A stretch of DNA of 42,139 nucleotides, from positions 1 to 42,139 of the forward strand of contig JAFWQA010000023.1 of NCBI GenBank assembly GCA_017509255.1, read 5' to 3'. Shown here one piece after another: positions 4,882 to 39,287 of the stretch. Below the pieces are notes generated by a model. That model was not told where the DNA came from and did no database searches. It saw only the letters and a list, made by a program, of their open reading frames with translations. Within the stretch, counting starts at the first letter, position 1. The number at the start of each line of letters is the position of its first letter. Made by a program: the position numbers and the translations under genes. This DNA is from Clostridia bacterium. Its GTDB lineage: Bacteria > Bacillota > Clostridia > Christensenellales > Aristaeellaceae.

Positions 4882-4920
4882 GCATCCCGGATGACCGGCC
4901 GGGGAGAGGGGACCGAAACG

Positions 4921-6084
4921 GTGCTGCGTAACGAGCTGAAGGAACATCTGACGGAAAAGATCCTGCCCTTCTGGGAAAGGCTTGCCGATCCGGAGCACGG
5001 AGGGTTCTTCGGATATGTGGACAAGGAGCTGAACGTGAAGAAGGATGCGGACAAGGGCTGCATCCTGCACGCGCGTATCCTGTGGACTTTCGCCACGGCA
5101 GCGCGCCTGCTCGGCGATGAGACGTACCGGAGATACGCGGAATATGCCCGGGAATCGCTGAAGCTGTTTGGAGATCCGGAAAACGGGGGCGTGTACTGGA
5201 GCATCACCTTTGACGGCAAGCCCGCGGACACGACCAAGCATACCTACTGCCAGGCATTTGCCATATATGGGCTGGCGGCTTATTACCGCCTGACCGGGCG
5301 GGAGGAGGCGCTTCGCGGAGCGATGAACCTTTTCCGGACGATCGAGAAGCAGTGCACTGTTTACAACGGCTACGGCGAAGCCTACAAAGCCGATTTTTCT
5401 CCGGAGAGCAACGAGAAGCTGAGTGAGAACGGCGTGATGGCGACCCGGACGATGAACACGCTGCTGCATGTGCTGGAGGCCTACGCGGAGCTGTACCGCG
5501 CAGGAAGGGACGAAGCGGTGCGGGAGGCCGGGGAAAGGGCGCTGGAGCGCCTGCTGGGCACGATGTACAATCCGGAGAAGCACCGGCTGGAGGTCTTTTT
5601 TGACGATGAGTACCGTCCTCTGCTGGATATGCAGAGCTACGGCCACGACATCGAGTCCGGCTGGCTGATCCGGGATGCCGCGCAGACGCTGCTGCCGGCG
5701 GAAAAGCAGGCACCGTATGACGCGATGTGCCTGGACCTCATCCGGAGCGTATATGACCGGGCGTTTACCGACCACGGGCTGAGAAACGAGTGCGTGGACG
5801 GAGCCAATGACGAGCTGCGGATCTGGTGGGTGCAGGCGGAGACGATGCTGGGCTTAGCCGAGGCGTGGGATATGACCCGGGAGGACAAATGGTCCGAAGC
5901 CCTGAGGACCCAGTGGGCGGCGATCAGAACGATGATCGTGGACAAACGGGAAAACGGGGAATGGTACTGGTCGGTCCGGGAGGACGGCAGCCTGACGGAA
6001 AGACCCATGGTCGAAGAATGGAAATGCCCCTATCACAACAGCAGGATGTGCATGAGGCTGATGCAGAAGGAGCTTCCGATTTAA
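4921..6084 (+). CDS. Cellobiose/mannobiose 2-epimerase (AGE family)
   Basis: The enzyme interconverts the reducing-end glucose and mannose units of beta-1,4-disaccharides. Here the likely role is mannobiose to mannosyl-glucose. The 387 residues match the family length (about 390). The (alpha/alpha)6-barrel histidines are visible: H183, H242 in SYGHDIESGWL and H372 in CPYHNSR, close to the known catalytic pair of Ruminococcus albus cellobiose epimerase. The GTG at 4921 was chosen because GGAGAGGGG precedes it at a normal distance and the protein then begins LRNELKEHL, as in homologues. An upstream ATG at 4891 has no such site. The next gene, the regulator, starts 16 nt downstream. An N-acylglucosamine 2-epimerase role is less likely in this context. 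Confidence 0.9.
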   Translation: MLRNELKEHLTEKILPFWERLADPEHGGFFGYVDKELNVKKDADKGCILHARILWTFATAARLLGDETYRRYAEYARESLKLFGDPENGGVYWSITFDGKPADTTKHTYCQAFAIYGLAAYYRLTGREEALRGAMNLFRTIEKQCTVYNGYGEAYKADFSPESNEKLSENGVMATRTMNTLLHVLEAYAELYRAGRDEAVREAGERALERLLGTMYNPEKHRLEVFFDDEYRPLLDMQSYGHDIESGWLIRDAAQTLLPAEKQAPYDAMCLDLIRSVYDRAFTDHGLRNECVDGANDELRIWWVQAETMLGLAEAWDMTREDKWSEALRTQWAAIRTMIVDKRENGEWYWSVREDGSLTERPMVEEWKCPYHNSRMCMRLMQKELPI

Positions 6085-6100
6085 CAGAGAGGTGGACGGA

Positions 6101-7099
6101 ATGAAGAAACCGACAATGAGGGATATCGGCAAGGCGGTCGGCGTGAGCGCGGTGACGGTGTCCAAGGCGTTGGCCGGGAAGGCCGGTATGAGCGACAAGA
6201 TTCGCAGGCGGATCCAGACAGTGGCGGAGGAAATGGGATATGAGTATCCCTCCGGGGAGAAGGTACGCCGCAGACTGAACCTGGATATCGGCATCCTGAT
6301 CCCGGATCAGTACTTCCAGTCAGATTCCTTTTATTCCGTACTGTATAAGCGGCTCGTGCAGAAACTGGCGGAGAGCAGCCATTTCGGGCTGCTGGAGCTG
6401 CTGAACGCGGAATCGGAGGCTTCGCTCACTCTTCCGAACCTGATCCGCAGCCACAGGGTGGACGGCATGATCCTGCTGGGCCAGCCAAGTAAGGAATACT
6501 ACCGGATGATGGCGCAGCAGGAAACGCCGGTGGTTTTCCTGGACTTCTATGATGAGCACGGCAGCGCGGATTCGGTGGTCGGCGACAATACCTACGGATG
6601 CTACCGGCTGACCAGCCACCTGATCCGCAACGGGCATACGAAGATCGGATTTGTGGGGAATTACCGCGTGACCAGCAGCATCATGGATCGGTATCTTGGA
6701 TTTTACCGCGCGATGCTGCTGGCTGACCTGCCGATCCGGGAGGACTGGATCATTCCGGACCGGCAGGAGCGGACCGGTCTGATCGATCTGGCGCTTCCGA
6801 AGGAGCTGCCCACGGCCTTTGTGTGCAACTGTGACCTGGTTGCCCAGAAGCTGATCGGGCAGTTGGAGGGGATGGGCCTCCGCGTACCGGAGGATATCTC
6901 CGTGACCGGCTATGACGACTTCAGTGTCGGAGAAACGCACGGACCGGCGCTGAGCACCTTCCGCGTGGATACGGAGAGCATGATCGAGCTGGCGGTCAAG
7001 ATGATCGTGGACCGCTGCTCCGGACTGAAAAAGCCCTTCGGGCGGACGGTAGTCAGCGGACAGCCGATCTACCGCGATTCGGAAAAAGCCCTGAAATGA
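6101..7099 (+). CDS. LacI-family transcriptional regulator of the mannoside locus
   Basis: This 332-residue protein has an N-terminal LacI helix-turn-helix (MRDIGKAVGVSAVTVSKAL, about residues 6-24) with the hinge-helix region after it. A type I periplasmic-binding-like effector domain follows and ends with the family's DDFSVGE and LSTFRVD motifs. ATG 6101 has GAGAGG upstream. As the second gene of the epimerase operon it probably represses its own transcription and that of the transporter through the TTAAC operators at 1467 and 4855. The inducer is likely a manno-oligosaccharide or mannosyl-glucose. That link rests on gene order and the shared operator core. Confidence 0.88.
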   Translation: MKKPTMRDIGKAVGVSAVTVSKALAGKAGMSDKIRRRIQTVAEEMGYEYPSGEKVRRRLNLDIGILIPDQYFQSDSFYSVLYKRLVQKLAESSHFGLLELLNAESEASLTLPNLIRSHRVDGMILLGQPSKEYYRMMAQQETPVVFLDFYDEHGSADSVVGDNTYGCYRLTSHLIRNGHTKIGFVGNYRVTSSIMDRYLGFYRAMLLADLPIREDWIIPDRQERTGLIDLALPKELPTAFVCNCDLVAQKLIGQLEGMGLRVPEDISVTGYDDFSVGETHGPALSTFRVDTESMIELAVKMIVDRCSGLKKPFGRTVVSGQPIYRDSEKALK

Positions 7100-7149
7100 C
7101 CGACGAAACACAGGATATATGATTCAAAAGATAAAGGAGAAGAAGAAAA

Positions 7150-8181
7150 ATGGACAAGGTACGTATGCTGAACGTCGGCTCCCTTCCGAATATTCCCTGG
7201 CAGGAAAGGCCTGAAGGCCTGACGGCGGAAACGCCCGTGTGGCGGTATTCCGGCAACCCGGTCATGGGCAGGAATCCCACACCCGAGATCGGGCGGATCT
7301 TCAACAGCGCCGTGGTTCCGTGGGAGGACGGCTATATCGCCGTGCTGCGCGGGGAACAGGTGAACGGGATCCCCTACGTCTATCTGGGCCATTCCAAAGA
7401 CGGCATTCACTGGGACGTGGAGCGGAACAAGGTGCCTTTTACCGATGAGGAGGGCAATCCGAAGATGCCCCGCTATGCCTACGATCCCCGGCTGGTGAAG
7501 GTGGAGGATACCTATTACATCATCTGGTGCGGCGACTTCTTCGGCGCGTCTATCGGCATGGCGAAAACGAAGGATTTCAAAACGTTTACGCGGATCGAGA
7601 ACCCCTTCATTCCCTTCAACCGCAACGCCGTCCTCTTCCCCCGGAAGATCGGCGGCACCTATAAGCTGCTTTCCCGTCCTTCCGACAGCGGGCACACTCC
7701 CTTCGGCGACATCTTCCTGTCCGAGTCCCCGGACATGGTGTACTGGGGCAGGCACCGCCATGTGATGGGCCGGGGCAATGAGTGGTGGGAAAGCGTCAAG
7801 ATCGGCGCGGGCGCGGCGCCCATTGAAACCACCGAAGGCTGGCTGATGTTCTATCACGGCGTGGCAACGACCTGCAACGGATTTGTGTACTCCATGGGCG
7901 CGGCGATCCTGGATATCGACCAGCCCAGCAAGGTGCTCTACCGCTGTGAGAATTATCTGCTGACCCCCGAGGAACCCTATGAGGTGACCGGCTTCGTGCC
8001 GAATGTGGTGTTCCCCTGCGCGACGCTGCAGGACGGAGATACCGGACGCATCGCCATCTATTACGGAGCGGCGGACACGAATGTGGGCCTGGCCTTTACT
8101 ACGGTGGACGCCGTGGTGAACTACGTCAAGAGCCACAGCGTGCTGAACTGGGGCGACGGGGAAGCGGTTCACAACTATTGA
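7150..8181 (+). CDS. GH130 beta-1,4-manno-oligosaccharide phosphorylase (subfamily 2-like)
   Basis: The enzyme should release alpha-mannose 1-phosphate from the non-reducing end of beta-1,4-manno-oligosaccharides in the cytoplasm, using phosphate. The 343 residues fit the shorter GH130 group typified by R. albus RaMP2. Five-bladed propeller motifs are visible, including the conserved Asp in YDPRLVK (D112) expected to act as proton donor, plus GMAKTKD and [13 protein letters not shown]. There is no signal peptide. The gene follows the regulator after 50 nt with AAAGGAG as ribosome binding site. A strong hairpin terminator follows, so the next GH130 gene would be expressed at a lower level. Confidence 0.88.
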
Positions 8182-8188
8182 CAGATCG

Positions 8189-8220
8189 CTGCCCGGGAGA
8201 AGCTGCCCGGGCAGTTTTTT
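8189..8220 (+). terminator. Intrinsic terminator between the two GH130 genes
   Basis: CTGCCCGGG (8189-8197) pairs perfectly with CCCGGGCAG (8206-8214) and is followed at once by TTTTTT (8215-8220). It begins 7 nt past the stop of the first GH130 gene. No promoter was recognised between it and the next start codon, so partial read-through is the likely role. Confidence 0.85.
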
Positions 8221-8267
8221 GCGAAAATAAGAACGGACGCGGCAGGCGCCCGAAAAGGAGGAACCGT

Positions 8268-9440
8268 ATGCGAAGCCGGAGCTTTGAATCCCTGACGGAA
8301 GCGTATGAAAGACTGCTGAACCGGCCGAACCCGGTGGATGAGCACTTCTATAACGGAATCTTCACCCGGTACCGGAACCCCGTGCTGACCAGGGAGCATA
8401 TTCCGCCCTTCTGGATGTATGACGCGAACCCGGAAACCAATCCGTACATGATGCAGCGCATGGGCGTGAACGCGACGCTGAACAGCGGCGCGATCAGACT
8501 GAATGGGAAATACTGCCTGGCGGTGCGCGTGGAGGGCGCGGACCGGAAAAGCTTTTTCGCGATCGCCGAGAGCGACAGGCCGACGGAGGGTTTCCGCTTC
8601 CGGGATTATCCGGTCGTGCTGCCGGACACCGAAAAGGAAGAGACCAACGTCTATGACATGCGGCTGACGCAGCATGAGGACGGATGGATCTACGGCGTGT
8701 TCTGCTCTGAAAGCAAGGACAGGAGCAGCAGCGATCTTTCCGCGGCAACCGCCGCGGCGGGCATCGTGCGCACGAAGGACCTGGAGAACTGGGAACGGCT
8801 CCCGAACCTGGTCACGCTGCATTCCCCGCAGCAGAGGAACGTGGTGCTGCATCCGGAATTCGTGAACGGGAAATACGCCTTCTACACCCGGCCGATGGAC
8901 GATTTTATTGAAACCGGCAGCGGCGGAGGCATCGGCTTCGGGCTGTGTGAGGATATCACAAGGGCGGTGATCGGCGAGGAGAAGATCATTGCGCCGCGCA
9001 GATACCATACGATAACGGAATCCAAAAACGGCGCCGGCACGGTACCGATCAGAACGAAGAAGGGCTGGATCCATATTGCCCACGGCGTGCGGAACACGGC
9101 GGCGGGGCTGCGGTACGTGTTGTATGCTTTCGCGACGGATCTGCAGGACCCTTCCCGGGTGATCGCCGAGCCCGGAGGAATGCTGCTGGGGCCTCTCGGG
9201 CGGGAACGCACAGGGGACGTGAGCAACGTGGTCTTCACCAACGGAGCGATCGCGGATGAGGACGGAAAGGTCTATCTGTATTACGCATCCTCCGACACGC
9301 GGATGCATGTGGCGGAAACGGATACGGACAGGCTGTGCGATTACGTGTTCCACACGCCGGCTGACCCCCTGCGCAGCGCGGACTGCGTCAGGCAGCGCAC
9401 GGAGCTGATCCGCAGGAATCTGGAATACCTGAAAAAGTGA
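8268..9440 (+). CDS. GH130 4-O-beta-D-mannosyl-D-glucose phosphorylase (subfamily 1-like)
   Basis: The expected reaction is mannosyl-glucose plus phosphate to mannose 1-phosphate plus glucose, the step after the 2-epimerase. The 390 residues match the longer GH130_1 enzymes (R. albus RaMP1 and Bacteroides MGP, about 390 aa). The catalytic Asp lies in VYDMRLTQ (D130). [10 protein letters not shown] and a C-terminal [17 protein letters not shown] blade are present. ATG 8268 follows AAAAGGAGG. The open frame runs further upstream, but through the terminator hairpin. The gene ends 10 nt before the esterase gene. There is no signal peptide, so it acts in the cytoplasm. Confidence 0.9.
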
Positions 9441-9450
9441 GGAAGAAACC

Positions 9451-10953
9451 ATGCTGAAGGTTGCACCCATTTTCACGGACGGGGCAGTGCTCTGCCGGCG
9501 GAAGGAGATCCGCATTTTCGGTGAGGCGGAGGAAGGCGCGGAGGTCCGCTGCGAGCTGCGGGACGAAAAGGACCGGCAGCTGGCCCGGGGATGCGGGCAG
9601 AGCATCGGCGGGCAGTTTCTGATCTGCCTTCCCGCACAGGAAGCGGCAGAGGGCTGCACCCTGACCGTGGAGGCGGGAAACGAACGCTTCCGGGCAGGGG
9701 ATCTGGCCGTGGGGGAGGTTTTTCTGGCAGGCGGGCAGAGCAATATGGAGCTGGAGCTGCGCAACGCGGACGGGGGAAAGGAACTGATCCCCGTACACAG
9801 CGATCCGCAGGTCCGGTATTTCAACGTGCCCAAGCGCGCGTATTTCTGCGGGGAAGCAGAGGAAGCCTTCCGGAACGCCCGCTGGAGGAAGGTGGCGCCC
9901 GGCAGCGCGGAAGACATGAGCGCTGTTGCATATTTCTTTGCTGTGAAGCTGCGGCGGGAACTGGACGTGCCGGTGGGGATCATCGACTGCTACTGGGGCG
10001 GTACCTCCGTTACGGCATGGATGAACAGGGATTGGCTCTGCCGCACGGCAGAGGGGAAACGGTATCTGGATGAGTATGAACAAAAGGCCGGGAACAAGGA
10101 CCTGGAGCAGTACCTGAAGGAGGAAGCGGCCTTCCAGGCAGGGGTCGACGCATGGAACGAAAAAGCGGAAAAATACCGCGCGGAGCATCCGCAGGCAACG
10201 GGCGCGGAGGTGAACGCCGCTGTCGGCCACTGCCCCTGGTGCCCGCCGGCCGGCCCCGGATCGCCCTACCGGCCCGCCGCGCTGTTTGATACGATGGTCG
10301 CCCGGGTGGCTCCGGCGGGGCTGAACGGCATTCTTTTCTATCAGGGTGAGGAGGATGCCGGCAGGACGGATCAGTACGACGTTCTGCTGACCGCGATGGC
10401 GGACTGCTGGCGGACCGCTTTCCGGGACAACGGGATCCCGTTCCTGATCGTGCAGCTGCCGATGTGGATCGACGCCGGAGCAAAGGATACCTTTACCTGG
10501 CCGGTGATCCGCCTGGCGCAGGCAAAGGTGCGGGATACGCTGAAGAACTGCGCCATGGTGAGCCTGCCGGATCAGGGCGAATATGACAATATCCATCCGA
10601 CGGACAAAAAGCCGGTCGGAGACCGGCTGTGTGAGCTGGCCAAGGCGGAAATTTACGGGCTGCCCGGCAAAAGATCGCCCCGGGCGGTGAACAAACAGAC
10701 GGACGGGGACGCGCTGAGCGTGATACTGGATATGCCTGTGCGGACAGCGGACGGGAAAGCGCCGGCCCTGCTGGAGATCGCCGGAGACGACGGATGCTTT
10801 GTGCCTGCCGAAGCGGAGGCGGACGGCGCGGTCCTGCGCCTGAAGGCGGCGGATGTGCCGCATCCGTCCCACGCGCGCTATGCCTGGACGGACTACGGAA
10901 CCGTGAATCTTTTCGGGGAAAACGAGCTGCCGCTGGAGCCCTTCCGGATGTAA
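9451..10953 (+). CDS. Intracellular SGNH/SASA acetylesterase, probable acetyl-mannan esterase
   Basis: This 500-residue protein is of the sialate O-acetylesterase (SASA) type. The nucleophile motif is GGQSNME (S97), IIDCYWGGTSVTAW follows, and the C-terminal catalytic pair lies in YDNIHPTDKK (D379/H382). No signal peptide is present. In the mannan locus of Roseburia intestinalis such proteins (CE17) remove acetyl groups from imported acetylated manno-oligosaccharides so that GH130 enzymes can proceed, and the same role is inferred here. The gene closes the mannoside operon. Only 26 nt separate its stop from the -35 box of the T-box leader. A true sialate esterase is unlikely, as no sialic acid genes are nearby. 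Confidence 0.8.
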   Translation: MLKVAPIFTDGAVLCRRKEIRIFGEAEEGAEVRCELRDEKDRQLARGCGQSIGGQFLICLPAQEAAEGCTLTVEAGNERFRAGDLAVGEVFLAGGQSNMELELRNADGGKELIPVHSDPQVRYFNVPKRAYFCGEAEEAFRNARWRKVAPGSAEDMSAVAYFFAVKLRRELDVPVGIIDCYWGGTSVTAWMNRDWLCRTAEGKRYLDEYEQKAGNKDLEQYLKEEAAFQAGVDAWNEKAEKYRAEHPQATGAEVNAAVGHCPWCPPAGPGSPYRPAALFDTMVARVAPAGLNGILFYQGEEDAGRTDQYDVLLTAMADCWRTAFRDNGIPFLIVQLPMWIDAGAKDTFTWPVIRLAQAKVRDTLKNCAMVSLPDQGEYDNIHPTDKKPVGDRLCELAKAEIYGLPGKRSPRAVNKQTDGDALSVILDMPVRTADGKAPALLEIAGDDGCFVPAEAEADGAVLRLKAADVPHPSHARYAWTDYGTVNLFGENELPLEPFRM

Positions 10954-10979: not shown

Positions 10980-11008
10980 TTGACAAGAGAAAAGAAATGG
11001 TTTAGACT
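10980..11008 (+). promoter_or_regulatory. Sigma-A promoter of the T-box leader
   Basis: TTGACA (10980-10985), a 17-nt spacer and TAGACT (11003-11008). The predicted start near 11015 places the whole T-box structure in the transcript. Confidence 0.82.
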
Positions 11009-11014
11009 TTCCCG

Positions 11015-11290
11015 TAACAGCAGTGACGGAGAGGACTGCGGAGAACCGGTTTCAGAGACACGGCGGTCAGGTGCGAGCCGTGAGAAGGATCCTCAGTTTG
11101 TAGCTCCCGAGCCGGAAGGAAGAAAGGGTCATCCCGAGTAGAACCTTCCCGAACAGGCCGCGTCAGGGCAGAAGGCGTTGATGGACGCTGAGAGTGGCGG
11201 TTTTATACCGCAATTTGAGTGGTACCGCGGGTGTGAATTCACGCTCGTCTCAAAGCAGACTTTGAGACGGGCGTTTTTGTTTTTACCGGA
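11015..11290 (+). promoter_or_regulatory. T-box riboswitch (tRNA-sensing leader)
   Basis: The leader of about 290 nt has the T-box hallmarks. Stem I shows a GACGGAGAGG stretch, CAGAGACACGGC and a distal stem closed by CACGGC/GCCGTG. A small stem GCGGT/ACCGC follows (11197-11211). The conserved T-box AGTGGTACCGCGG lies at 11218-11230. TTTGAG (11214-11219) can pair with CTCAAA (11249-11254) as antiterminator, in competition with the terminator that uses the same bases. The UGGU in the bulge predicts a tRNA with discriminator A. By alignment to the usual stem I pattern, the specifier may be CTC (Leu, 11104-11106). GTA (Val, 11100-11102) is the alternative. The specifier call is tentative. Confidence 0.92.
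11246..11285 (+). terminator. Regulated terminator of the T-box leader
   Basis: CGTCTCAAAG (11246-11255) pairs perfectly with CTTTGAGACG (11260-11269) around a 4-nt loop, then GGCG and a T-rich run to 11285. It ends 23 nt before the start codon of the regulated gene. Confidence 0.92.
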
Positions 11291-11308
11291 CGATGGGAGG
11301 AAAGACGA

Positions 11309-13606
11309 ATGGCACAGATGACGGGACTGAATTTCAAGATCCAGGAGATGGCTCACCGGATCCGGGAGCTGCGCGAGATCGAAAACCTCACGATCGCGGA
11401 GATGGCCGGCAAGACCGGCGTGACGGAGCAGGAATATATCGACTGCGAAATGGGCCGGTCGGACCTGAACTTCGCGTTCCTGTACCGCTGCGCGCTGGCA
11501 TTCGGCGTGGACGTCGGCGATATCATCGAGGGTTCCAGCCCGAACCTGAACTCCTTCACGGTGACCCGGAAGGGCGAAGGCCAGCGCATTGAGGAAGCCC
11601 ACGACATGATCTACTACAACATGGCGGCTTCCTTCCGCAACCGGATCGCGGAGCCCCTGTACGTGCAGGCGGCGTACAGCGCGGAGGCGGAGAAGGAGGA
11701 TATCAAGCTGACCACCCACGAGGGGCAGGAGTGCGATATCGTCATTGAAGGCTCCCTGAAGGTGCAGGTTGGCGAGCATATCAGCATTCTGTATCCCGGC
11801 GACTCCATCTACTACGATTCCGGCACCCCGCACGGCATGATCGCTGTGGGCGGCAAGGACTGCCTGTTTTACGCGATCGTCCTGAACCCCACCGGCGCCC
11901 CGATCCCGGAACTGACGCCGGAAAAGGCCATGCCCGGCACTGCCCTGCAGGAGTTCCCGGCGGAAAACGGCCGCACCCGCGTGTGGCATCGTTACGCGGA
12001 CGTGGAGAAGGACGAAAACGGCACGCCCGTGAAGATCACCTTCAAGAATACCGAGAAGTTCAATTTTGCCTTCGACGTCATCGACGCGATCGCGGACGAA
12101 GTGCCGAACAAGCTGGCCATGCTGCACCTGGACCGGGAGAAGAACGAGCACCGGTTCACCTTCAATGATATGAAGCGCGCGTCCAACCGCTGCGCCAACT
12201 ACTTCAAGTCCCTGGGCATCAGGAAGGGCGACCGTGTGATGCTTGTGCTCAAGCGGCACTACCAGTTCTGGTTCTCCGTGCTGGCGCTGGAGAAGATCGG
12301 CGCCATCGCGATCCCCGCCGTGGCCCAGCTGCAGGAGCATGACTTTGAATACCGCTTCAATGCCGCGGGCGTGAAGGCGATCCTCTGCACCGCGGACGGG
12401 GATACCGCTCATCAGGCGGAGCTGGCCGCGCAGAACGCGCCGAGCCTGGAGCTGAAGCTGATCGTGAACGGGCATCGGGAAGGCTGGCGCAGCTTTGACG
12501 ATGAATACACCATGTTCAGCACGCATTACAACCGCACCGAGGAGACTCCCTGCGGCGATGACCTGATGCTGATGTACTTCACCTCCGGCACCACGGGCTA
12601 TCCGAAGATCGCGGCTCACAGCTACAAGCACCCGCTGGGCCATCTGCATACCGCCAAGTACTGGCACTGCGTGAACCCGAATGGCCTGCACCTGACGATT
12701 TCCGACACCGGCTGGGCCAAGGCCGGCTGGGGCAAGATCTACGGCCAGTGGCTGTGCGAGGCGGCCATTTTCGTATACGACTTCGACCGCTTCGACGCGG
12801 CGGACATCCTGCCGCTGTTCGCGAAGTACAATATCACCACCTTCTGCGCGCCGCCGACCATGTACCGCATGCTGTGCAAGCAGGACCTGAGCAAGTATGA
12901 CCTGAGCTCCGTGACCCATGCCTCCAGCGCCGGCGAAGCGCTGAACGCGGAGGTCTACCGGCAGATCGAGAAGCAGACCGGCCTGCAGATCATGGAAGGC
13001 TTCGGCCAGACGGAGAGCACGATGATCATCGGCAACCTGGCCGGCGCGGACCACAAGCTCGGCTCCATGGGAAAGGTCGCCCCGATCTACCATGTGTGCC
13101 TGCTGGACGCGGACGGCAATCCCGTGCCGGACGGCACCCCGGGCGAGATTTGCGTGGATATCTCGAAGGGCATCCCGATCGGCCTGTTCCGCGGCTATTA
13201 TCGCGATGAGGAAAAGACAAAGGAAGTTATGCACGACGGCTGGTATCATACCGGCGACCTGGCCTGGTGCGATGAGGACGGCTTCTACTGGTACGTGGGC
13301 CGCGCGGACGACGTGATCAAGTCCAGCGGCTACCGTATCGGGCCGTTTGAAATCGAGAGCGTGATCATGGAGCTGCCCTACGTGCTGGAATGCGGCGTCA
13401 GCGCCGCACCGGACGAGGTCCGCGGCCAGGTGGTCAAGGCCAGCATCGTCCTGACCAAGGGCACTGAAGGCACCGAAGAGCTGAAAAAAGAGATCCAGAA
13501 CTATGTGAAGGCGCATACCGCTCCCTACAAGTATCCCCGCATCGTCGTATTCCGCGATGAGCTGCCCAAGACGGTCAGCGGCAAAATTCAGAGGGCAAAG
13601 TTGTGA
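11309..13606 (+). CDS. XRE-HTH / cupin / acyl-CoA synthetase (AMP-forming) fusion protein
   Basis: This single 765-residue chain has three parts. An XRE helix-turn-helix covers about residues 17-75 (LREIENLTIAEMAGKTGV). A cupin covers about 95-195 (THEGQECDIVIEG; GTPHG with H175). An ANL-superfamily ligase covers about 230-765. The ligase shows P-loop TSGTTGYPK (425-433), GFGQTEST, TGDLAW, a GYRIGPFEIE hinge and C-terminal catalytic Lys759 in SGKIQ. Its middle part resembles medium-chain acyl-CoA synthetases (ACSM type). It should activate a carboxylic acid to its CoA thioester. XRE-cupin proteins usually regulate transcription after binding a small ligand, so the chain may sense and activate the same acid. 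T-box control points to amino acid supply, for example isovalerate or isobutyrate for leucine or valine synthesis. The substrate is inferred. ATG 11309 follows GGGAGG. Confidence 0.88.
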   Translation: MAQMTGLNFKIQEMAHRIRELREIENLTIAEMAGKTGVTEQEYIDCEMGRSDLNFAFLYRCALAFGVDVGDIIEGSSPNLNSFTVTRKGEGQRIEEAHDMIYYNMAASFRNRIAEPLYVQAAYSAEAEKEDIKLTTHEGQECDIVIEGSLKVQVGEHISILYPGDSIYYDSGTPHGMIAVGGKDCLFYAIVLNPTGAPIPELTPEKAMPGTALQEFPAENGRTRVWHRYADVEKDENGTPVKITFKNTEKFNFAFDVIDAIADEVPNKLAMLHLDREKNEHRFTFNDMKRASNRCANYFKSLGIRKGDRVMLVLKRHYQFWFSVLALEKIGAIAIPAVAQLQEHDFEYRFNAAGVKAILCTADGDTAHQAELAAQNAPSLELKLIVNGHREGWRSFDDEYTMFSTHYNRTEETPCGDDLMLMYFTSGTTGYPKIAAHSYKHPLGHLHTAKYWHCVNPNGLHLTISDTGWAKAGWGKIYGQWLCEAAIFVYDFDRFDAADILPLFAKYNITTFCAPPTMYRMLCKQDLSKYDLSSVTHASSAGEALNAEVYRQIEKQTGLQIMEGFGQTESTMIIGNLAGADHKLGSMGKVAPIYHVCLLDADGNPVPDGTPGEICVDISKGIPIGLFRGYYRDEEKTKEVMHDGWYHTGDLAWCDEDGFYWYVGRADDVIKSSGYRIGPFEIESVIMELPYVLECGVSAAPDEVRGQVVKASIVLTKGTEGTEELKKEIQNYVKAHTAPYKYPRIVVFRDELPKTVSGKIQRAKL

Positions 13607-14070
13607 TTCAGTCCACATTATGTTATATTTATCGGGAAGACGAGGTGCTTCTGCTTCACCGGACAAAGAAGGCCGGCGATATCAACCGCGACAAGTGGAT
13701 CGGTATCGGAGGCAAGTTTGAGGAAGGGGAAAGCCCGGAGGACTGCCTGCTGCGCGAGGTGCGGGAGGAAACCGGGCTGACGCTGACAGACTGGCGCTAC
13801 CGTGGGATCGTGACGTTCGTTTCGGACCTGCAGGAAACGGAATATATGCATCTGTTCACCTCCGAAAGCTTCGAGGGTACTCTGACGGAGTGCGACGAGG
13901 GCGACGCCGTGTGGATCAGGAAAGCGGATTTCGACGCGCTGCCGCAGTGGGAAGGAGACAAAATATTCCTCCGGCTGCTGGATGAGGATGCCCCTTTCTT
14001 TTCCCTGAAGCTGACCTACACCGGCGACCGGCTGGACAGCGCTGTGCTGAACGGCAGAAAACTGAGCTGA
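13603..14070 (+). CDS. NUDIX hydrolase (MutT/8-oxo-dGTP diphosphatase-like)
   Basis: This 155-residue protein carries a complete NUDIX box from GGKFEEGESP (about residue 36) through REVREETGL, which coordinates Mg2+ for pyrophosphate hydrolysis. The pattern FVSDLQETEYMHLF and the overall size suit the 8-oxo-dGTP or nucleotide-cleaning group. It begins with GTG inside the stop of the fusion gene (GTGA, 4-nt overlap), so it is translationally coupled to it and shares T-box control. The exact substrate is unknown, and a link to CoA or acyl-adenylate housekeeping is possible. Confidence 0.85.
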   Translation: MIQSTLCYIYREDEVLLLHRTKKAGDINRDKWIGIGGKFEEGESPEDCLLREVREETGLTLTDWRYRGIVTFVSDLQETEYMHLFTSESFEGTLTECDEGDAVWIRKADFDALPQWEGDKIFLRLLDEDAPFFSLKLTYTGDRLDSAVLNGRKLS

Positions 14071-30384: not shown

Positions 30385-30515
30385 GTGCCGCGAATGTGAT
30401 GACGGTCGGGTCCCGTGCGATCTGTCGGTGTGAACCCTGTCAGGTCCTGACGGAAGCAGCAGTAAGCATTGGATGGATGTGCTGCGGGGCAGCCCGGCTT
30501 GAGCAGGCGCGGTTT
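30385..30515 (+). ncRNA. ffs: Signal recognition particle RNA (4.5S-like / scRNA)
   Basis: The core of domain IV is clear: CCCTGTCAGGTCC (30436-30448), tetraloop TGAC, then GGAAGCAGCAGTAAGC (30453-30468), the conserved SRP54/Ffh-binding element. The ends pair through CCGCG (30388-30392) and CGCGG (30508-30512), and eight Ts (30513-30520) terminate it. The tetraloop is UGAC (URRC type) rather than the common GGAA. The length of about 130 nt lies between the E. coli 4.5S and the long Bacillus scRNA. It guides membrane-protein ribosomes to FtsY. Confidence 0.93.
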
Positions 30516-39200: not shown

Positions 39201-39283
39201 GCCGAAGTGGCGGAATGGCAGACGCCGCGGATTCAAAATCCGCTGCCCTCAAAAGCGTGCGGGTTCAAGTCCCGCCTTCGGCA
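39201..39283 (+). tRNA. tRNA-Leu (anticodon CAA)
   Basis: This class II tRNA has acceptor strands GCCGAAG (39201-39207) and CTTCGGC (39276-39282), discriminator A39283, anticodon arm GCGGA-TTCAAAA-TCCGC with anticodon CAA, a variable arm TGCCCTCAAAAGCGT and T arm GCGGG-TTCAAGT-CCCGC. No CCA is encoded. Its 3' half is the probable attachment site of the element that follows. Confidence 0.95.
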
Positions 39284-39287
39284 CGTT

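Follow-up and report, generated by a model that had tools for sequence, protein, structure and literature searches.

A T-box riboswitch with a valine specifier precedes a fused helix-turn-helix-cupin-acyl-CoA synthetase gene in a Clostridia bacterium, and the codon matches an acyl-pocket residue among relatives

T-box riboswitches act by antitermination, turning genes on when an amino acid is scarce and its cognate tRNA uncharged, and the bulge of their T-box sequence pairs with the NCCA end of the tRNA. Here we analyzed a T-box leader that precedes one 765-residue chain joining an XRE-type helix-turn-helix (HTH), a cupin domain and a medium-chain-type acyl-CoA synthetase, in a stretch of 42,139 nt (the window; contig JAFWQA010000023.1, assembly GCA_017509255.1) from a Clostridia bacterium of the Aristaeellaceae. 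With the valine and isoleucine leaders of branched-chain amino acid (BCAA) genes in the Rfam family RF00230 it shares a Stem I with specifier, an AG bulge and GGUG loop, the T-box sequence and a competing terminator; it differs from them in its target, an acyl-CoA synthetase. PMC2494555 counts BCAA biosynthesis among the established T-box targets of Clostridia. A search of the main text of that paper for the terms CoA, acyl and ferredoxin returned no mention, and no T-box linked to an acyl-CoA synthetase was found in the portions available of the openly licensed literature, including PMC2494555, PMC2700814, PMC10620731 and PMC6418233.

The solved sequence closest to the chain is MacsMa of Methanosarcina acetivorans (PDB 3etc), at 585 bits compared with 351 for the runner-up; a second, isoleucine-type fusion of the same genome scored 616 bits against it. 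MacsMa prefers 2-methylbutyrate (PMC10455477). The ligase retains MacsMa-like features, namely the AMP-binding and C-terminal domains, motif III (YHTGD) and the equivalent of Trp259. The solved MacsMa chain differs in that its 580 residues, of which the alignment begins at residue 51 or 52, include no HTH-cupin part, and in that it shares Gly at our residue 470 with the isoleucine paralogue, whereas the valine type has Ala. The best NCBIfam model was the MbcS acyl-CoA synthetase (NF047394), from which the chain differs by its fusion, its T-box control and a score of 441 bits, well under the curated cut-off of 850. In the same genome family, unfused XRE-cupin and ligase pairs carry the same domains next to each other, and several genomes have two pairs with different pocket motifs. 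Those pairs are separate proteins, however, and a T-box motif lies near the pair start in only 3 of 41 loci, all three read by eye as AUC. As for physiology, isobutyrate is a precursor of valine and 2-methylbutyrate of isoleucine in rumen fermentation, as PMC7356843 states with reference to Allison and Peel 1971 and to Robinson and Allison. The reductive isoacid carboxylation described by Allison and co-workers in rumen bacteria comprises the same conversions as those proposed below, for which we offer candidate genes.

A sequence-only reading of the window had placed a complete T-box ahead of a single HTH-cupin-synthetase chain, and both parts of this claim were borne out. The leader matched RF00230 over the full model (positions 1-219; 77.2 bits, E = 3.5e-17), with the Stem I specifier loop and the apical AG bulge and GGUG loop, and the T-box sequence UGGNACCGCG was present together with a competing intrinsic terminator (Table 1). 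A window-wide scan missed the leader because 77.2 bits is below the gathering score of 93. That threshold was reached by none of the seven RF00230 matches in the source genome, including those before pheS, ileS and thrS; an isoleucine-type leader in a relative (G013) scored 96.4 bits. The T-box motif GTGGTACCGCG occurred once in the window, against 0.03 occurrences expected. We located 121 leaders of both types and aligned 46 of them, and compensatory changes in 22 of the 34 predicted pairs indicated one common structure. Such T-box features predict that this leader would act by antitermination.

On the protein side, all four domains exceeded their Pfam cut-offs within one uninterrupted frame, with AMP-binding spanning residues 262-631 and AMP-binding_C residues 681-759. 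We searched for the three-domain architecture, as the same reading had advised, in a family survey of 100 genomes and a class survey of 291 Clostridia genomes, the source genome being counted in both. The fusion was recovered in 30 family genomes (28 full length, 2 interrupted by contig ends) and, full length and free of stops, in 64 class genomes. A sequencing error as the origin of the fusion was therefore rejected, given the many full-length copies. The other family genomes, sorted from search listings, had an unfused ligase (32) or no such ligase (38); one genome whose best copy contained two stops (G173) was scored as not fused. We added 80 fusion loci from named records, mostly metagenome-assembled Clostridia and many of them from the ruminant gut. 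Collapsing the 181 fusion open frames by a 900-nt key left 172 distinct copies, with two duplicates of the window (L003, L008) excluded and four partial ligases at contig ends (L024, L058, L081, L108) kept out of the fusion counts.

The specifier was read with a parser that ignores the specifier letters and demands at least three of four pairs in the helix beside the specifier loop. In the window it read GUA, the triplet that directly adjoins a one-base spacer on its 5' side, in a loop closed by the GGAG/CUCC helix. Alignment of the leader to the covariance model, by which the earlier reading had proposed to identify the codon, gave the same valine specifier, that is, one for a branched-chain amino acid. 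Among the 172 distinct copies, 145 leaders were read blindly, as GUA (67), GUC (12), GUG (1) or AUC (65). Codons other than GUN (80) or AUC were thus absent from the 145 read leaders, which defines two fusion types, valine and isoleucine. Over these leaders the GGAG/CUCC helix had 572 Watson-Crick, 6 G-U and 2 unpaired cells out of 580, a count to be seen in light of the parser's own pairing demand. The 27 unread copies comprised 15 without a T-box motif and 12 with a motif that was not parsed; a second parse restricted to GUN or AUC, which is biased and was excluded from the counts, read 8 of these 12, all consistent with residue 470. The source genome carries both types, the GUA copy of the window and an AUC copy on contig C11 (L121:7322-9589, minus strand). 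As a control, the parser was run on five further T-boxes of this genome, excluding the isoleucine paralogue. Four were read, and each codon suited the gene behind it: UGG for a TrpB-like enzyme and for a TrpX-like binding protein (whose 223 bits fall short of the family cut-off of 390), UUC for pheS and AUC for ileS.

The codon was mirrored in the acyl pocket of the enzyme. In the protein alignment, residue 470 was Ala in 80/80 GUN copies and Gly in 65/65 AUC copies, and it was one or the other in all 172 copies. It sits four positions N-terminal of the Trp259 equivalent, and the MacsMa residue aligned with it is Gly. At residue 473 every AUC copy (65/65) has Leu, and the GUN copies mostly have Met (57) or Gly (11). 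The bulkier residue 470 of the valine type would fit an acid smaller by one carbon, suggesting isobutyrate as the substrate of the valine-type ligase and 2-methylbutyrate as that of the isoleucine type. Isovalerate, with leucine as the matching amino acid, was rejected, there being no leucine specifier among the 145 read fusion leaders. The earlier proposal that a short branched acid is activated when the matching amino acid runs short thus holds in outline, through the valine and isoleucine specifiers and a residue 470 that follows them in 145/145 copies; the acid is narrowed to a probable isobutyrate, or 2-methylbutyrate for the paralogue, and isovalerate drops out. Leucine-type T-boxes (CUG or CUC) do occur in loci L174, L175, L177, L172 and L190, where they precede a divergent LeuA-like gene, whose product in L177 has 472 residues and scored 273 bits against a cut-off of 532.

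Table 1. Coordinates of the T-box leader and the fusion gene in the window
Feature	Position	Strand	Basis
Probable promoter	10980..11008	+	TTGACA (10980-10985), 17 nt, TAGACT (11003-11008); by eye, unscored
T-box riboswitch leader, Stem I to antiterminator	11014..11255	+	RF00230 match; conserved with covariation in relatives
Stem I helix, 5' strand GGAG	11028..11031	+	Pairs with CUCC at 11104-11107, adjoining the specifier loop
Specifier codon GUA (valine), specifier loop	11100..11102	+	Parser and RF00230 alignment
T-box sequence GUGGUACCGCG, antiterminator bulge	11219..11229	+	Motif search
Intrinsic terminator, 15-bp hairpin then U-rich run	11241..11274	+	Fold of 11222-11290, z -5.15
HTH-cupin-acyl-CoA synthetase fusion P0001, 765 aa	11309..13606	+	Single uninterrupted frame
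XRE-type HTH, residues 17-73	11357..11527	+	HTH_19 PF12844, 33.4 bits, cut-off 30.2
Cupin domain Cupin_2, residues 131-190	11699..11878	+	PF07883, 44.5 bits, cut-off 27.2
Medium-chain-type acyl-CoA synthetase, residues 262-759	12092..13585	+	PF00501, 213 bits; PF13193, 74 bits
Acyl-pocket segment A470-K-A-G473-W474	12716..12730	+	W474 aligns with MacsMa Trp259

These observations make it likely, in our judgment, that the gene serves the starvation-induced production of valine from isobutyrate, and its AUC paralogue that of isoleucine from 2-methylbutyrate, by reductive carboxylation. Uncharged tRNA-Val would bind at both the GUA specifier and the UGGU bulge, upon which the antiterminator would form and the ligase gene would be read. 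The ligase domain would then convert isobutyrate to isobutyryl-CoA, with ATP going to AMP, a 2-oxoacid:ferredoxin oxidoreductase of the VorB family would carboxylate isobutyryl-CoA reductively to 2-oxoisovalerate, and transamination would yield valine. The paralogue would take 2-methylbutyrate to isoleucine by the same route. Since T-boxes switch genes on when the tRNA is uncharged, the gene should make valine rather than burn it, and the flux would presumably run toward the amino acid. The pathway could also run in reverse, as a fermentation of branched-chain amino acids in which the oxidoreductase yields acyl-CoA and the ligase domain frees the acid, as 2-oxoacid:ferredoxin oxidoreductases are reversible and often catabolic. 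We regard this as very improbable: a catabolic gene should not be switched on by scarcity, energy-conserving exit routes do not usually employ an AMP-forming synthetase, and both ilvC and ilvD were below cut-off in 28/30 family genomes with the fusion.

The genes around the fusion also fit this route. A VorB-type subunit was found downstream on the same strand in 32 loci, and upstream on the other strand in a 33rd (L156); the VorB representative scored 534 bits (cut-off 399). The final fusion copy was of the valine type in 33/33 of these loci, and the beta subunit was also present in 26 of them. Six loci carry, downstream, a member of a neighbour cluster represented by a branched-chain aminotransferase (444 bits, cut-off 307). 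Where the two types lay as a pair on the same strand, the isoleucine copy was upstream of the valine copy in 51/51 cases, most pairs being spaced by 250-580 nt and most having a T-box for each gene. Four isoleucine-valine tandems only 7-56 nt apart (L051, L085, L097, L109) have a T-box motif on neither gene, and a different control must therefore act there; in L097 and L051 the sequence directly upstream of the tandem resembles the terminal part of a further AMP-forming ligase gene.

Genome content agreed with these neighbourhoods. In the family survey, VorB exceeded its cut-off in all 30 fusion genomes, in 25 of the 32 whose ligase is unfused and in 5 of the 38 that have neither form. The corresponding numbers for ilvC were 1, 7 and 24, and ilvD was over cut-off in 2 of the 30 fusion genomes. 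A branched-chain aminotransferase was over cut-off in three of the four genomes of the genus, those being congeners at 97-99% completeness, and was not found in the source assembly, which is 74% complete. Reductive carboxylation by a ferredoxin-dependent 2-oxoacid oxidoreductase, which the sequence-only reading had put forward, is thus supported by the loci with VorB, by the co-occurrence of VorB with the ligase and by the rarity of ilvC and ilvD. The same acyl-CoAs could also feed another fate, with isobutyryl-CoA as primer of iso and 2-methylbutyryl-CoA as primer of anteiso branched-chain fatty acids, the T-boxes acting since such primers normally derive from valine and isoleucine. MbcS, the best NCBIfam model, is presumably a methylbutyryl-CoA synthetase serving branched fatty acids in Listeria, in line with a primer supply. 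The MbcS score of 441 bits is about half of the cut-off, however, and the loci hold VorB, the beta subunit and, in six cases, the aminotransferase cluster. As VorB also accompanies the ligase (30/30 against 5/38) and ilvC is rare beside the fusion in the family sample, we consider the primer explanation unlikely, if less so than the reversed pathway.

Several observations weigh against valine production from isobutyrate or limit the evidence for it. The copies are related, and the tree of the ligase without its pocket offered only five independent contrasts on supported branches; 5/5 agreed (p = 0.0625), as did 3/3 on the tree of residues 605-765. As all five agree, the match between codon and pocket appears to be maintained, but the independent events are few. 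The parser gave no reading for one control T-box, that of thrS, which has the lowest score (43.5 bits); its Rfam alignment sets CCG, a non-threonine codon, at the specifier and the threonine codon ACC a single base further upstream. In that alignment this T-box (L007, C23:41500-41694 in the source genome) is missing the region where Stem II is usually found, and its register may be CCG or ACC. The 15 fusion copies without a T-box motif include the valine-type copy of a congener, G026, in which neither the motif within 700 nt nor significant similarity to the window leader was found (L158, upstream of 4021). VorB lay within 2.5 kb in only 27 of the 74 loci having at least 3.5 kb of downstream sequence, and no oxidoreductase adjoins the ligase in the window. 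The VorB of the source genome (566 bits, L222) is on contig C12 among four clustered genes, which we read as putatively encoding a 67-residue ferredoxin, VorB, the beta subunit and a 178-residue gamma subunit; the model score covers VorB alone.

The absence of ilvC is likewise less clear-cut outside the genome counts of the family. By genus, the contrast was weak, with ilvC in 2/13 genera with the fusion and 15/37 others. In the class survey 15/64 fusion genomes had ilvC, 14 of them with a best fusion hit of less than 67% identity. We used a best hit of at least 67% as a guess of the valine type, by which those 14 genomes probably lack a valine-type copy; class-wide, ilvC was present in 1/21 fusion genomes with such a hit, 14/43 other fusion genomes and 139/227 genomes without the fusion. 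The incompleteness of the source assembly also calls for caution, yet ilvC and ilvD were missing from the three nearly complete congeners too. Finally, leuB was over cut-off in none of eight genomes, which leaves the fate of 2-oxoisovalerate toward leucine unclear.

We looked for a single clean division of the ligase tree into the two types and did not obtain it, the labels being mixed. We therefore tested the chain region by region, using the 62 genomes or loci that carry both types. In the HTH-cupin part, the identity between valine and isoleucine copies was the same within a genome as between genomes, to about one point per 30-residue stretch, so that this part keeps two separate lineages. 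The ligase stretches 271-390, 511-540 and 631-765 were 1 to 6 points more identical within than between genomes, a pattern that gene conversion would leave, and stretches 421-510 and 571-600 showed no such rise exceeding one point. The minimum number of specifier changes was two on the trees of the HTH-cupin part and of residues 421-510, seven on that of the ligase without its pocket and nine on that of residues 605-765. Leaving out residues 465-475 raised the number for the 421-510 stretch to five. It may be, although we hold this only tentatively and below even odds, that the riboswitch-enzyme pair was duplicated and re-coded as a unit, the specifier, the HTH-cupin sensor and residue 470 staying matched, to valine and isobutyrate or to isoleucine and 2-methylbutyrate, while other parts of the ligase homogenise between copies. 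The cupin would then be a second, ligand-specific layer, with the chain answering to uncharged tRNA through its RNA and to a branched metabolite through its protein.

Five positions in the cupin or just N-terminal of it (97, 102, 117, 121 and 188) separated the two types perfectly or almost perfectly (0.988 to 1.000), which makes the HTH-cupin part specific to each type and a possible ligand sensor. Most likely, in our view, it would respond to a branched acyl-CoA or amino acid by tuning either the ligase or its own gene. As a rule, XRE-cupin proteins regulate transcription, and an HTH-cupin gene lies directly upstream of 41/41 fetched unfused ligases, loci picked partly for having such a gene nearby. 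The chain might accordingly be mainly a DNA-binding regulator whose ligase domain is a sensor or has a minor role. The ligase motifs are conserved, including W474, and the acidic HTH of both fused and unfused forms speaks weakly against DNA binding, so we give this possibility very little credence. The mean net charge of the HTH was -4.9 in the valine type, -5.8 in the isoleucine type and -6.7 in unfused proteins; as a test of DNA binding, charge was dropped as indecisive, the unfused forms being equally acidic.

Other features lie in and around these loci. An open frame of 845 residues on the opposite strand of the fusion gene (window 11129-13666, minus strand) is in all likelihood a shadow frame produced by GC-rich codon use. 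A NUDIX hydrolase gene (13603-14070) shares 4 nt with the end of the ligase gene; members of its neighbour cluster appeared in only three loci. Upstream of the leader, at 4891-10953, we read by eye a putative sugar epimerase, a LacI-type regulator, two glycoside-phosphorylase-like genes and an esterase. Elsewhere the window encodes a bacterial small SRP RNA (30404-30502, 62 bits) and a tRNA-Leu (CAA; 39201-39284). In locus L170, a TPP riboswitch (1870-1972) has a T-box roughly 130 nt away on the other strand.

The locus thus places a classic riboswitch before an apparently new kind of target, an enzyme that is fused and has a matched duplicate. It would widen the range of T-box targets to an acyl-CoA synthetase. 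The specifier codon may serve as a readable label of the substrate and residue 470 offers a single residue to swap, for a fusion that occurs in 64/291 class genomes. The two types provide candidate genes for the rumen route from isobutyrate to valine and from 2-methylbutyrate to isoleucine, known for decades from labelling work cited in PMC7356843, and suggest how bacteria without ilvC may obtain their valine.

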